Below are positions 2,011-32,773 of a stretch of DNA of 33,970 nt, in pieces. The notes beneath the pieces are model-generated. The model did not search any database, was not told the DNA's origin, and was given only the letters and a program-made list of their open reading frames with translations. The translations under genes were made by a program, and so were the position numbers. Location: IMG/VR virus record IMGVR_UViG_3300032294_002231, positions 1 to 33,970 of that record; one strand, written 5' to 3'. How positions within the stretch are numbered: the stretch's first letter is position 1; every line of letters starts with the position of its first letter. The stretch comes from a virus.

Positions 2011-2354
2011 TTCCACAATATTTGTATCAAAATTATACAAAAAGAAAGAAATAAACAAATTGAAGTCTTTAGTGAGATACCTTCTTTAAATAAAAACCAA
2101 CCCATTAAAGCAAAAGTAATTATACCTACCGCAAAACCAAGTATGCGACTAGGATAGATTTCTCCACCAAATGCTAAGATAAAATTCTCGACACTCTTCA
2201 TGAATGCCCAACTAATAGGAAGTCCAAGTAGCATAAGAGCCCAACTGTATTTCTCAGTCCAACCCCATTTGATACCACCTTGTAGTTGAATAAAAGATAA
2301 GACTTGTCCTATAATACCGTAAAGAACTCCGTAAACTAAATTTAACAAAACCAT
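2007..2354 (-). CDS. Multi-pass membrane protein, 115 aa
   Basis: Three or four hydrophobic segments are visible: about residues 4-22, 38-52, 70-88 and 95-113. The N-terminal block (YGIIGQVLSFIQLQGG) resembles small conserved membrane proteins of T4-like marine phages that I know from memory; no search was done. It probably sits in the host inner membrane. Its stop overlaps the phosphoesterase start as ATGA, so the two are translationally coupled. Function is unknown. A role in lysis or superinfection is possible but nothing in the sequence shows it. Confidence 0.7.
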   Translation of the reverse strand: MVLLNLVYGVLYGIIGQVLSFIQLQGGIKWGWTEKYSWALMLLGLPISWAFMKSVENFILAFGGEIYPSRILGFAVGIITFALMGWFLFKEGISLKTSICLFLSFCIILIQILWK

Positions 2355-2366
2355 TTTATTTCTTTT

Positions 2367-2645
2367 TTATTCCTCTTCTGTACTCATATACAATCCTGAA
2401 GACATATTACCACCTTCTTCTGCAATGGCATCTTTATTAATTAATTCATTGATCTCTTTCTTAATTTCTTTTATAGCATCAATGTATTCCTTAAGTTTCT
2501 TTTGATCATCAGGAGAAAGTTTACTAACTCTCTCTTTCATGCTCATAGTACCTTCAACAGGAATGGTTTCCTCTTGTGGCATTGATTCATCTTCCATCAA
2601 TGATAGAATTGCTTTGCTATACTTAACTGGATCTACGTAATTCAT
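2367..2645 (-). CDS. Hypothetical charged helical protein, 92 aa
   Basis: The start is placed at 2645 (MNYVDPVKYSKAILSLMEDE), because the longer frame overlaps the zinc-ribbon gene upstream and its extra sequence is that gene in another frame. The protein is acidic and helical, with a Lys/Glu-rich coiled-coil stretch at about residues 40-75 (KERVSKLSPDDQKKLKEYI), and ends in an acidic tail. It may be a small structural or assembly protein, but I recognise no family. Confidence 0.65.
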   Translation of the reverse strand: MNYVDPVKYSKAILSLMEDESMPQEETIPVEGTMSMKERVSKLSPDDQKKLKEYIDAIKEIKKEINELINKDAIAEEGGNMSSGLYMSTEEE

Positions 2646-2655
2646 TTGATTCTTT

Positions 2656-2859
2656 CTAATAAATATTTGACATCTTAACAAGTTCTTTGGCAACCTTACT
2701 ATCTTTAATGACATGAACTTCAAAGTCATTTTTAGATCCTGCTGCCACGATACCTGTGTATCTTTCGGCAGTCGAATGCTTTACACAAGAAGTAGAATAT
2801 CCTAATGCTACACGTTTTGGGTGGATCTCAGTTCCACATACTTTACAATACTTTTTCAT
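2656..2859 (-). CDS. Zinc-binding mini-protein, 67 aa
   Basis: The N-terminus MKKYCKVCGTEIHPKR has a CxxCG knuckle. A later Cys and His (YSTSCVKHST) could complete a treble-clef or ribbon zinc site. The C-terminal half (FEVHVIKDSKVAKELVKM) looks like a small beta-alpha domain. Such mini-proteins are frequent in large phages, and their targets are usually unknown. The ATG overlaps the stop of the upstream gene (GAGTTATGA), giving 4-base coupling. Confidence 0.7.
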   Translation of the reverse strand: MKKYCKVCGTEIHPKRVALGYSTSCVKHSTAERYTGIVAAGSKNDFEVHVIKDSKVAKELVKMSNIY

Positions 2860-3125
2860 AACTCTTGAATTTGTTTTAATAGTTCTGTAACTTCATCAGG
2901 TGTCAAATGCCCTCTAACATCTCCATTAGCTACTGGATTGTCGTAATGCAGCTTTCCATTCTCATCTAATACAGCAAGCTCATAGAGACCTTCTTTTCCT
3001 CCATAACTAAAGTTGTGCCTAACTATGCTGGCTCCGTATCCATTGCCAAATTGAATTCTACACTGTACTCCATTATAGAATAGATCTTTCATTTCTATAA
3101 ATTCTAAGTCTTTAAATGTTTTCAT
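2856..3125 (-). CDS. Hypothetical protein, 89 aa
   Basis: A soluble mixed alpha/beta protein starting MKTFKDLEFIEMKDL, with a Gly-rich middle (QFGNGYGASIVRHNFSYGG) and an acidic C-terminus (LTPDEVTELLKQIQEL). It is encoded 2 bases after the stop of the long gene at 3128-4003 and overlaps the next gene by 4 bases. I see no motif that indicates a function. Confidence 0.7.
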   Translation of the reverse strand: MKTFKDLEFIEMKDLFYNGVQCRIQFGNGYGASIVRHNFSYGGKEGLYELAVLDENGKLHYDNPVANGDVRGHLTPDEVTELLKQIQEL

Positions 3126-3127
3126 TA

Positions 3128-4003
3128 TTATGCATTTTCTTTTTTAGCATATTGCCTATTGTATCTATCTGTTGTATACCTACTATCACTTTCAGATCCA
3201 CCATTCTGCCAATTAAATACGTCATCAATAAACTCATTAAATCTCTTAATTGTTATTGTAACTTCTTTATCTGATCGGCTGTCATTAGAAAACTCTAATG
3301 TACATTTATACTTGTTTAATTCTTTCACTTTGAAAGCACTTACATATACATAATCATAGTTACTTCTACCTATTTGCAATTTCATTTGGTGTTTAATATC
3401 TTCCAAAGTAACTTCACCCGTGTCATAATTTCTATTGATATACTTCTTAGTGTTTAGTTCACAAGAGAAGCCAACTTTTTTGTATTGATTCTTTGCTTCA
3501 TTAGCAATCTCGCTCTTTGTATTACTAATCGTAACACGCAAATCTGAGCATTCTCTTTCCATTTTATTTGCTTCACGATATATCTCTAAGAATGCTGGAC
3601 TCCATTCGTGCTTGAATTTGTTTTCTATTTCTTGAAACTTAGCAGCTACTGCTCCAAATACCTGTACATCGGCTAAAACAAATCCGTCTTTTGCCGTAGC
3701 TCTAGAACTATACCAACTAAATTCAGCGTACTTAGATCTATTTTCACTTCTATAGTCATGCATTAAAGAAATGGTACACGAATTCCAACGTGCGTGCTCT
3801 TCGAATTTCATGATCTCAATCCTATCGCTAGTAGCTACTATTTTTTGAATTAAATTAGATACATTTTCTTGGAACCAAGATAAGATGACGGCATTTTGTG
3901 CTTCGTACGCTGGCTTGACTACGTTATTTTCGTAGACTTCTGTTTCTGATTCTTTTGTCTTGAGCTGTGCTTCTAAAGCTGAGAGGATAATTTGCTTATT
4001 CAT
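3128..4003 (-). CDS. Hypothetical coiled-coil-containing protein, 291 aa
   Basis: The start is placed at 4003 (MNKQIILSALEAQLKTKESE), just inside the AAAGGTTATG context. The longer frame would run upstream into the control region. Residues 1-60 and 140-175 are rich in Glu, Lys and Gln and look helical. The C-terminal 100 residues are beta-rich and end with a low-complexity tail (RYTTDRYNRQYAKKENA). There is no signal peptide. It is the first gene behind one of two duplicated control regions with three dyads, so it may be an early or specially regulated product. I recognise no family. Confidence 0.75.
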   Translation of the reverse strand: MNKQIILSALEAQLKTKESETEVYENNVVKPAYEAQNAVILSWFQENVSNLIQKIVATSDRIEIMKFEEHARWNSCTISLMHDYRSENRSKYAEFSWYSSRATAKDGFVLADVQVFGAVAAKFQEIENKFKHEWSPAFLEIYREANKMERECSDLRVTISNTKSEIANEAKNQYKKVGFSCELNTKKYINRNYDTGEVTLEDIKHQMKLQIGRSNYDYVYVSAFKVKELNKYKCTLEFSNDSRSDKEVTITIKRFNEFIDDVFNWQNGGSESDSRYTTDRYNRQYAKKENA

Positions 4004-4015
4004 AACCTTTATTTG

Positions 4016-4152
4016 TTTGATACATAGTAAAATTAAGACAATCCGTCGAAACAAAAAAATTTATTTTGATCTTTTTTGAAAATTCTCGATTGAAAATCAA
4101 TCAGTTATAAGTGGTTGATTATCAATAAGTTATAAGTGATTGGAAATCAATC
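4016..4152 (-). promoter_or_regulatory. Control region A: promoter-like block plus three dyad repeats
   Basis: Thirteen bases upstream of the ATG at 4003 is a 25-base block (4016-4040) that is identical to 7296-7320 upstream of another gene. Upstream on the transcript lie three copies of a palindromic unit of the type TTGAAAATCAA (4090-4100, 4115-4125, 4140-4150), exactly 25 bp apart, each followed on the plus strand by GTTAT. The block holds TTTG, 16 bases, TAATTTTA, loosely like the Bacteroidota -33/-7 elements. I infer a promoter with tandem operator sites; iteron-type origin sites are the alternative. Confidence 0.6.
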
Positions 4153-4465
4153 AGTTATGAGAAGTGTACTTTAGGATTAGTTGGTCTATGATCTGTTTGT
4201 CTGATTGATCAAATGACTTTTTATTTTGAACCTTTTTTACGTAGTCAATATGCTTTTCAACTACTTCTAATTTAATTGCATAATTTAAATGCTTACCTTT
4301 ATTTTCATTAGCAAATTTATATTCGTGAGTAAGGATCTCTTTTAGTGTCTGTATTTTTCTAATATAATTATTTTCAACTTCTTTTTTATCGAAATGCTCT
4401 TTAGCTTCCATTGCTTTAACTAACTTGTCTCCCATTTTGCCTAAAGAATATTTCTTGTAATCCAT
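4151..4465 (-). CDS. Hypothetical helical protein, 104 aa
   Basis: The start ATG at 4465 (MDYKKYSLGKMGDKLVKAME) overlaps the stop of the upstream gene as TGATG. A GTG three bases earlier is less likely. The protein is basic and acidic in alternation and predicted all-helical, with no membrane segment. Its C-terminal codons touch the last dyad of control region A, so transcription reading out of this gene passes through the repeats. Function unknown. Confidence 0.7.
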   Translation of the reverse strand: MDYKKYSLGKMGDKLVKAMEAKEHFDKKEVENNYIRKIQTLKEILTHEYKFANENKGKHLNYAIKLEVVEKHIDYVKKVQNKKSFDQSDKQIIDQLILKYTSHN

Positions 4466-4755
4466 CACTCATTATTTTTAACCATATACTTGAATATTGT
4501 TTTCTGTAATTCACGTAACGCTTCAGTATTATCTTTAATAAGTTCTGCTAATCTATCTCTTTCTTCTGCAATTAATCCCATCATCTCTTCTTGAAGTCTA
4601 TCTACTTTTTCTTCAAGCATATCATTCTTTTTAACAAGTCTTTGATATTGCATCCATGCAAAATATCCAAGTAAAAAAGCAAGTATGCCTAAAATTCCGT
4701 ATTGCAAAAAATACTCTTTTATATGTTCTGATTCTGCTACCTGAAGTAAGGTCAT
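4465..4755 (-). CDS. Single-pass membrane coiled-coil protein, possibly holin- or spanin-like
   Basis: A short N-terminal part is followed by one transmembrane segment at about residues 17-36 (YGILGILAFLLGYFAWMQY). A long charged coiled coil with regular Leu, Glu and Arg spacing follows to residue 90. This plan (N-out anchor, cytoplasmic helix) is shared by BhlA/UviB-type small holins and some Rz-like proteins, but there is no diagnostic motif. The next gene starts within its stop codon. It lies far from the better holin candidate at 30993. Confidence 0.65.
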   Translation of the reverse strand: MTLLQVAESEHIKEYFLQYGILGILAFLLGYFAWMQYQRLVKKNDMLEEKVDRLQEEMMGLIAEERDRLAELIKDNTEALRELQKTIFKYMVKNNE

Positions 4756-30357: not shown

Positions 30358-30371
30358 AACTATTATTTTAG

Positions 30372-30458
30372 TACCTGAAGTGGGACTTGAACCCACACGA
30401 GCTTTTTCTGCTCACAAGATTTTAAGTCTTGCGCGTATACCGATTTCGCCATCCAGGT
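30372..30458 (-). tRNA. tRNA-Leu (anticodon UAA)
   Basis: A complete cloverleaf of class II form, 87 bases: the acceptor arm ACCTGGA pairs with TTCAGGT, D-arm GCG...CGC, anticodon stem CAAGA/TCTTG with loop CTTAAAA (anticodon TAA), a long variable arm with stem GAGC/GCTC, and T-arm GTGGG/CCCAC with TTCAAGT. The long variable arm agrees with Leu. CCA is not encoded after the discriminator A. UUA is likely a frequent codon in this AT-rich phage, so the tRNA could supply it. Confidence 0.93.
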
Positions 30459-30466
30459 TTAAAGAG

Positions 30467-30623
30467 CTGTCAGGGGAGGAGTCGAACCTCCATGCTGCAA
30501 TTTGGTATTAGACAAAATAGCCGGCTTTGTGGTCAACCCATATCTAAATACCTATCTTGTTTTTCAGCGCCCACGAGACGAGTGGGTGTGTATGCCGTGT
30601 AGCTACTCTTTCACCACCTGACA
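30467..30623 (-). tRNA. tRNA-like gene with enlarged middle (157 nt, no clear anticodon)
   Basis: The ends are perfect for a tRNA: acceptor TGTCAGG/CCTGACA, discriminator G, D-arm GTG...CAC and T-arm GGAGG-TTCGACT-CCTCC. Between D- and T-arms there are about 106 bases instead of about 30-45. They can form a hairpin CCCAC-TCGTCTC-GTGGG and a long hairpin closed by GGTATT/AATACC. No loop fits an anticodon with U33. This may be a tRNA with an insertion or intron, a degraded tRNA, or a new tRNA-like RNA. It lies 8 bases from tRNA-Leu. Confidence 0.55.
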
Positions 30624-30627
30624 ATGA

Positions 30628-31519: not shown

Positions 31520-31558
31520 GTTTTGTTTCTCCTTATATGTCAAAGAACAGTAGCCTTG

Positions 31559-31632
31559 TTGACCCTCTCGGGCTTGAACCGAGGACCCACAGATTATGAG
31601 TCTGTTGCTCTAACCAACTGAGCTAAGGATCA
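31559..31632 (-). tRNA. tRNA-Met (anticodon CAU)
   Basis: A complete 74-base class I cloverleaf: acceptor TGATCCT/AGGGTCA, D-arm GCTC/GAGC, anticodon stem ACAGA/TCTGT with loop CTCATAA (CAT), T-arm CTCGG/CCGAG with TTCAAGC. The discriminator is A and CCA is not encoded. The CAT anticodon could be elongator Met or a lysidine-modified Ile tRNA; the sequence alone does not decide. It lies directly downstream of the terminator of the structured RNA. Confidence 0.92.
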
Positions 31633-31634
31633 TT

Positions 31635-31662
31635 AAAAAAGGGAAGCCATTTCTGACCTCCC
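31635..31662 (-). terminator. Intrinsic terminator of the structured RNA
   Basis: On the minus strand GGGAGGTC (from 31662) pairs with GGCTTCCC (to 31641) across the loop AGAAAT, including two G-T pairs, followed by TTTTTT (31640-31635). It ends the region of unidentified RNA structure on the minus strand and lies only 3 bases before the tRNA-Met gene. Confidence 0.85.
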
Positions 31663-31950
31663 TATAAATTGATGGGAGTAACGATTACCCACAATCCATG
31701 GACAGACCCCTTTTCACCCATAGTCCACAAAGATGATCAGTCTAAGTGTTAAGACTAGCTGGATTGTATACCAGCAACGCCTGCGGAGATCGTGTCAATT
31801 ATCTTCGGCATATCCAGAGCACTTTCAGGTTGCGCATTCTACCCTTAGTGGTGGTGGTTTTAACTCATCTGTCTGTGAAACCCAACTCAATAGCTTTTCA
31901 GCCATCTTATCAGTGCCTTAATCCCTCTCAAGGATTTATTCGGCCACATT
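31641..31950 (-). ncRNA. Unidentified structured RNA, about 310 nt
   Basis: There is no convincing gene in this 310-base stretch, but on the minus strand it is GC-richer than its surroundings and rich in hairpins: AATCC/GGATT near 31925, GCTGG-(8)-CCAGC near 31765, AGTCT-(8)-AGACT near 31745, TGGAC/GTCCA near 31710, GGGTAA-TCG-TTACTCCC near 31685, and the terminator at the end. I see no RNase P core (no GAGGAAAGTCC), no tRNA parts and no intron-type exon context. Conserved phage RNAs such as GOLLD are a candidate class, but I cannot match it. Short plus-strand frames over it are probably chance. Confidence 0.65.
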
Positions 31951-31962
31951 TTTAAATAACTT

Positions 31963-32361
31963 CTATTGGCAGTTTTCTACTTTACTAACTTGACCATTTT
32001 GATCAATAGTTAAAGCATATTTTTTCTCTCCTCCAGACCCTTTCCAATTTACAGCCCATATAACACCTTTGCCATCAAAAACTTTTTGTAAAGAAGAATC
32101 TAAAAATAATTTTGTTCCTACTGTTGGAAAGTTGTCAGAATACATTGAATAGATCTCTGATGGTGTAGATGCTCCGCATACGCTTTGAGCGCTTTGTGCT
32201 GGGGTATTTGATCTTTCATTTTTTACAAAAACTGGTTTAGATGCTAGATCTGTTGAGTCTTTTACAATAGTTATTTGCTCCTGCGTATTTCTTTGATTCG
32301 GAGAATCACAAGATATAAAAAACATAATTGATACTAAACTCGCTAATAATACTTTTTTCAT
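31963..32361 (-). CDS. Lipoprotein, 132 aa
   Basis: The N-terminus MKKVLLASLVSIMFFISCDS is a signal peptide with a lipobox ending ISC, so the mature protein is lipid-anchored at Cys 19. The rest is soluble with a beta-rich C-terminal half (WKGSGGEKKYALTIDQNG) and Ser/Thr-rich middle. I recognise no family. A surface or periplasmic role such as superinfection exclusion or lysogenic conversion would fit a phage lipoprotein. The gene lies between the tmRNA and the structured RNA. Confidence 0.75.
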   Translation of the reverse strand: MKKVLLASLVSIMFFISCDSPNQRNTQEQITIVKDSTDLASKPVFVKNERSNTPAQSAQSVCGASTPSEIYSMYSDNFPTVGTKLFLDSSLQKVFDGKGVIWAVNWKGSGGEKKYALTIDQNGQVSKVENCQ

Positions 32362-32387
32362 ATTTTTTGTTTTTTTTTAATTTTTAG

Positions 32388-32773
32388 TGGAGATAGTGGG
32401 ATTCGAACCCACGTCTCCGAAAGAGACAATAATACTAACGTCTCACATGCTTAGTACTGCTTGCGCTGCACCGTAAGGGCTGACTTGTTATGGTCGGATC
32501 CACCACTTGATTTTATGACTATCAAGAAAACTAATCCACAGTCCTTATTTAACGAGTCGATCGTGAATACTCGGAGTAGTTCTGTTCCTAGGTTACTCAC
32601 CCGAGTTTGACTAGGCAGCTACTGCGTAGTCAGCACCAACGAAAGACATTGCGTCTTCGAAAGTGAAAGAAGATAATTCTTCAGCGTTTATTGTTTAGTA
32701 TCTTCTAAGGCAGTATACTCAAATGCCTGCATGTAGTATTACCTCAACATTCGGATCGATACCGGTTATCCCC
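32388..32773 (-). ncRNA. ssrA: tmRNA (ssrA), 386 nt
   Basis: The ends form a tRNA-like domain: GGGGATA at 32773 pairs with TATCTCC at 32389-32395 (discriminator A), with a T-arm CGTGGG/CCCACT region carrying TTCGAAT just inside. The tag frame runs from about 32685 (GCT) to the TAG at 32611-32613: it starts AEELSSFTFE and ends GADYAVAA, 24 residues in all. The -VAA end is the usual protease-recognition end. The tag is unusually long against the 8-12 residues common in bacteria. tmRNA rescues stalled ribosomes; a phage copy could do so with its own tag. It is not the 3' half of a host gene. Confidence 0.9.

Follow-up and report, generated by a model that had tools for sequence, protein, structure and literature searches.

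On the minus strand of the window, by which we mean the whole stretch of DNA analysed, namely the 33,970-base IMG/VR virus record IMGVR_UViG_3300032294_002231, a gene for a structured RNA lies among tRNA and tmRNA genes, with a tmRNA upstream and a tRNA-Met just downstream (Table 1). The conserved part of the RNA runs from about 31962 to 31662, approximately 300 nt, and the terminator comes next. A sequence-only reading had described positions 31635-31955 as a gene-free stretch, GC-richer than its surroundings, with a good terminator at its end, and all three points hold: the two listed ORFs in the stretch (62 and 69 aa) are antisense and not conserved, GC content is about 0.44-0.46 against about 0.27-0.35 in most of the surroundings, and the terminator hairpin is followed by a T-run. 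That reading named no strand; we assign the RNA to the minus strand because GU cells outnumber AC cells by 178 to 6 in the homologue alignment. The end of the small phrog_21885 ORF adjoins the RNA in the window phage, and the ORF is missing at that spot in two related contigs (L002, L003). The tag peptides of the tmRNAs vary in this phage group, where we find AEELSSFTFEDAMSFVGADYAVAA, DEMSTMTFDDLMAFVGADEATFA, DEMSEMTYDDLMAFVGADYALAA and ANEYAVAA.

Table 1. Features of the RNA locus, in window coordinates.
Feature	Position	Strand	Basis or remark
Whole RNA gene (conserved RNA and terminator)	31640..31962	-	Homologue alignments over the stretch; structure counts
5' module GUGGCCGAAUAA-hairpin-UAAGGCAC, common to manA	31913..31947	-	Helices 1 and 2: 100% paired, 7/10 pairs compensated; aligned to the manA consensus
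GAAA-loop hairpin, loop invariant	31882..31913	-	Helices 3 and 4
Long-range helix GACRGAU/GUCYGUC around the interior domain	31701..31873 (5' strand about 31873-31867, 3' strand about 31707-31701)	-	Helix 5
3' terminal hairpin GUGGGUAAUCGUUACUCCCAU, loop pairing with CGAU at about 31792-31789 (pseudoknot)	31672..31692	-	Helices 11 and 16; resembles the manA 3' hairpin
Intrinsic terminator AGGGAGGTCAGAAATGGCTTCCCT then TTTTT	31663-31640	-	10-pair hairpin and T-run
tRNA-Met, just downstream of the RNA	31558-31632	-	ARAGORN
tRNA-Leu	30371-30458	-	
Small ORF, 132 aa, phrog_21885, between tmRNA and RNA	31963..32361	-	Function not known
tmRNA, upstream of the RNA	32387-32773	-	Tag AEELSSFTFEDAMSFVGADYAVAA

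Thermodynamic folding is only mildly above chance and by itself weak proof of an RNA: the minus strand has a folding energy of -95.4 kcal/mol (z = -1.98, with 3 of 100 shuffles equally good) and the plus strand gives z = -0.62. The decisive support is comparative. An alignment of 20 distinct full RNA sequences (A3) yields a fold of 16 helices, one of them a pseudoknot, with 68 pairs in total; of its 1357 cells 97.9% form standard pairs, and compensatory changes are seen in 42 of the 68 pairs. The covariation score of 0.468 lies far above shuffled alignments (0.218±0.009) and slid partners (at most 0.105), the slid control being somewhat favourable as the structure was derived from the same 20 sequences and the shuffle control ignoring phylogeny; no shuffle out of 500 reached four of the five measures, and the slid controls collapsed. 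The effect size leaves little doubt that the RNA structure is real. The proposal of the sequence-only reading that a structured RNA lies beside the phage tRNAs is thus borne out, and the homologues keep the stems and share no reading frame, the reverse of the pattern that the reading had named as refuting it, with stops in every frame of every homologue and longest open runs that disagree.

The 5' module has the consensus GUGRCYGAAYAA-hairpin-UAARGYAC across homologues. The long-range helix is 100% paired, with three pairs each compensated in 6-9 of the 20 sequences; it takes the form GACNNNU/GNNNGUC, in which the N positions pair as GGA/UCC, AGA/UCU, GAG/CUC, AUG/CAU or AUA/UAU. Within the RNA lies a central hairpin, GCUGG-UANUCAAU-CCAGC, and two hairpins have the motif GGUANNCA-AUYCC in common. 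In the pseudoknot, an upstream CGAU or UGAU is the partner of a loop that reads AUCG or AUCA, and pair 192-323 is UA in 12 sequences and CG in 8, so that pairing is kept in all 20. A closing helix formed by the RNA ends is clear in six members (L035, L094, L095, L097, L108, L113) and weak in the window. A UGUG/CACA helix proposed by RNAalifold (columns 21-24/92-95 of alignment A2) was poorly supported and dropped. A core so complex, with many helices, a pseudoknot and unpaired stretches that never vary, might bring to mind an unlisted ribozyme or RNA-processing RNA with an RNase P-like or group I intron-like core, and the helix CACAGACNNN/NNNGUCC is one that we take to recall group I P7. This explanation is highly improbable, given that Rfam finds neither RNase P RNA nor a group I intron in the window at E up to 10, that the order of helices is unlike that of group I introns, and that no exon or cleavage-site signature is seen.

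Homologues of the RNA occur in 30 IMG/VR contigs besides the window. The first relatives were found through the neighbouring exonuclease, whose relatives led to three further copies (L002 and L003 with 94-95% identity, L035 with 73%), and more through patterns of conserved blocks in IMG/VR, checked by profile HMM. All homologues are metagenomic. When four members were compared with 50,697 annotated phage records by blastn, tRNA matches or short matches due to chance were all that came up, and of three pattern hits in species genomes not one proved homologous. The RNA is missing from close relatives of the window phage, namely the records behind L004 (162 kb), L007, L012 and L015, which makes it a patchy, accessory element. 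The nearby nuclease is similar to the one in Flavobacterium phages of the immuto group (41% identity), and from this likeness the host is probably a member of the Bacteroidota. Neither Flavobacterium immuto phage nor Microcystis phage Mel-JY01, both of which carry relatives of the nuclease, has the RNA; a 17-bit match of model R2 (the 3' part of the RNA) in Mel-JY01 was judged to be due to chance, as model R1 (the 5' part) fails there and the 3' hairpin is missing.

Another unlisted RNA, about 160 nt long, is encoded nearby (window 30462-30626, minus strand) and is called by neither ARAGORN nor Rfam. It has a tRNA-like acceptor stem, an anticodon-like arm with the loop (U/C)CGUCU(C/A), a T-arm and a variable domain of about 80 nt. 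It is present at 74-98% identity across many contigs of the phage group (L085, L021, L091, L090, L093, L102, L007, L008, L084, L015, L006, L012, L117, L004, L028, L087, L032 and L023), and 22 of its 41 predicted pairs have compensatory changes.

Large structured RNAs without a known function are rare, and those borne by phages, such as GOLLD and ROOL, are structurally remarkable. The ~300-nt RNA had been thought to match no recognised class, to be possibly akin to GOLLD, and to be either a new member or a new class. A search against all 4227 Rfam families gives no match at gathering score in the RNA, in agreement with the first point; kinship with GOLLD is not supported, with no match to that family even at E up to 10 and about 300 nt in place of roughly 800. 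Novelty stands in part: the RNA is unlisted at Rfam gathering thresholds, but it is not isolated, for its two ends and its terminal pseudoknot have counterparts in manA (RF01745), the one family matched, if weakly. Other weak names returned at E up to 10 (sR43, DLEU2_3, freshwater-2, DUF2693 and Plastid-ycf2, the last being the antisense of a tRNA) were chance or strand artefacts.

The manA RNA has been met mostly in T4-like cyanophages and is a candidate riboswitch, an unexplained RNA of ocean viruses whose role has, to our knowledge, been open since 2010. Because it precedes metabolic and photosynthesis genes, it was listed as a possible riboswitch (Weinberg et al., 2010, PMC2864571). The Rfam model, with 192 positions and a gathering score of 55.2 bits, matches the window RNA at 18.0 bits (E 0.016-0.033), below the gathering score. 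Four divergent members are matched over the full length of the model (1-192), each match lying on the RNA and all below 55.2 bits: L117 at 33.4 bits (E 2.1e-5), L113 at 31.1 (1.1e-4), L095 at 30.0 (2.2e-4) and L035 at 29.4 (3.3e-4). In a comparison set of 17 cyanophage loci, manA shows GUGACUGAAUAA-hairpin-UAAGGUGA as well as a 3' hairpin, GGUAUACAGGAAUCC, that stands immediately ahead of the closing strand CUCCC and whose loop is able to pair with an upstream CUGUA. The counterparts in the new RNA are GUGGCUGAAUAA-hairpin-UAAGGCAC and GGUAGUCAGGAUUCC, again directly before the closing strand, with a loop that pairs with an upstream CUGAUC, so that 5' module, 3' hairpin and closing helix keep the manA order, the closing helix being weak in the window.

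In the reverse direction, the 13 best unfiltered matches of R2 within 53 kb of cyanophage sequence include 11 that lie on the manA 3' hairpin or extend across it, singly at rough E-values of 0.09-0.4, and R1 gave no significant match to manA, its E-values being likewise rough. As R1 gives nothing significant and single R2 matches are weak, homology is argued from the matches of the Rfam model and from the order of the motifs. Small HMMs of manA modules gave scattered results against the new RNAs, above shuffles for several members and absent for others, and a swap test of the manA loop pairing gave modest support (mean run 5.4 versus 4.5). Common descent of the two RNAs is likely on this evidence, and we would hold to it with good confidence. 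The new RNA is most likely a larger manA-related subclass, and we file it as such rather than as manA itself because it has another interior and scores below the gathering threshold. In four cyanophages, annotated hypothetical proteins overlap manA (S-SSM7, GU071098 151441-151572; P-HM2, GU075905 4849-4953; P-SSM4, AY940168 164884-165057; S-SSM5, GU071097 116417-116623); these are probably spurious ORFs.

The genomic placement of the RNA bears on how it might act. It starts 0-5 bases after the tmRNA in L002, L003, L091 and L093, and about 45 to 670 bases after it in L085, L117, L087, the window and L035. In most of the tmRNA-linked members it is followed by an intrinsic terminator whose sequence differs from phage to phage with pairing kept. 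Four divergent types (L095, L097, L108 and L113, 13 contigs) have no terminator, and the RNA fills the gap between two tRNA genes, as in L095 where it spans that from tRNA-Thr to tRNA-Gly. The genes downstream are tRNAs or small ORFs from several unrelated families, with no common downstream gene. Varied next genes, changing terminators and placement by tRNAs and tmRNA fit a stable RNA gene and not a leader regulating one gene, and with no conserved downstream gene, and either its own fast-changing terminator or a place in a tRNA cassette, the RNA is probably free-standing and acting in trans.

Several further elements were seen in these loci. A TATTTATATA-type motif, which may be a phage promoter, stands shortly before the RNA or before a 49-nt element in L082, L084, L087, L100, L106 and L117, and is rare elsewhere in these loci. 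The 49-nt element is a conserved hairpin (AGTACTTAGCACAGTTCTCCTGGTTCACTGTCCCAGGCTAAGT...) found at L084 2671-2719 (-), L085 5715-5763 (-), L117 4609-4657 (+) and L004 8752-8800 (+), directly upstream of the RNA in the first three and also present in L004, which is without the RNA. In L085, about 22 tRNA genes (2302-4506, minus strand), a nearly full decoding set, follow directly downstream of the tmRNA and the RNA.

Another possibility, already raised for manA, is that the new RNA regulates in cis as a riboswitch or leader, sensing a metabolite and controlling termination into the downstream unit. Apart from the listing of manA as a possible riboswitch (PMC2864571), such a role would suit the terminator directly after the RNA in most tmRNA-linked members, the small ORF that begins 13-71 nt past the RNA in ten members (L082, L084, L087, L088, L090, L091, L093, L100, L106, L117), and the cyanophage manA copies examined, most of which resemble 5' UTR elements with the next co-directional gene 16-135 nt downstream. 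However, the genes downstream of the new RNA are tRNAs or belong to unrelated families, packed tRNA genes leave no mRNA to regulate, and the terminator stems vary beside a conserved RNA, which makes a conserved antiterminator within it unlikely; we thus consider a cis role unlikely, though less clearly so in the members followed by a small ORF. In S-SSM7 the last base of manA is followed at once by a tRNA-Gly gene, and in P-TIM68 the gene after manA is on the opposite strand; in combination with the location of the new RNA in tRNA arrays and near tmRNA genes, these two cases favour a free-standing RNA that acts in trans.

With moderate confidence, we therefore prefer to see in the new RNA a free-standing structured RNA of tailed phages, a larger sister of manA that would be matured with the stable RNAs and act in trans as a scaffold or decoy; the tailed nature of the carriers is part of this joint explanation and is held no more firmly. 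The RNA would share its transcription with the phage tmRNA, the tRNAs or both, though some phages might have a separate promoter for it; its release would come about at a terminator of its own or, where it lies in a tRNA array, through the enzymes that process the adjacent tRNAs. It would then fold around the closing helix, the long-range helix and the pseudoknot between 3' hairpin loop and interior, and its role in the infected cell would most likely be to provide a protein, the ribosome or a tRNA-handling factor with a stable scaffold or decoy. Judging from the neighbouring genes, our guess for the partner would be the translation machinery or a tRNA-directed host factor. A rival, more specific proposal is that the RNA imitates an element of a tRNA or of the ribosome and in this way soaks up the nuclease or effector of a host defence that attacks tRNA or translation. 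Its place among phage tRNAs and tmRNA, its two hairpins with a common motif and its patchy presence in close relatives, typical of accessory or defence cassettes, would agree with this, but ARAGORN and Rfam detect no tRNA-like fold in the RNA itself, and we regard such a defence decoy as quite improbable.

If the trans-acting reading of the new RNA is extended to its cyanophage relative, manA and the new RNA would form one superfamily of free-standing phage RNAs made with tRNAs and tmRNA, with a shared role in trans during infection of which the ribosome or tRNA-directed defence could be the object, and manA would have been misfiled as a riboswitch. We put this forward tentatively, as a possibility to which we give rather less than even weight. 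The new RNA brings strong covariation support, a nearly complete secondary structure and a link to manA, so the role of the manA family may need rethinking if it is a free-standing cousin, and its placement between tRNA genes poses a testable question: are members of the manA superfamily riboswitches or stable trans-acting RNAs?

Among known systems, GOLLD resembles the new RNA as a phage-borne structured RNA near tRNAs and differs from it in sequence, with nothing in common found and no Rfam match, and in its far greater length. tmRNA (RF00023) is the adjoining gene on the same strand, probably in one transcription unit in several phages, whereas the new RNA has neither a tRNA-like domain nor a tag reading frame, and the Rfam tmRNA match lies upstream of it. 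The closest counterpart is manA. Shared between the two are the 5' module GUGRCYGAAUAA-hairpin-UAAGG inside a closing helix, the 3' hairpin GGUA..CAGGAnUCC just before the closing strand, a 3' loop pairable with an upstream element (CUGUA/UACAG in manA, CUGAUC/GAUCAG in the new RNA), a multibranch long-range helix, and carriers that would in both cases be large tailed phages. In contrast to manA, of about 200 nt, the new RNA is about 300 nt long, lacks the 5' hairpin and the three-hairpin interior, having other helices and about 100 nt more in its place, scores 18-33 bits against a gathering score of 55.2, and was not found in annotated cyanophages; and whereas manA was described from the 5' UTR of metabolic or photosynthesis genes, the new RNA has its own terminator or a place in a tRNA array.
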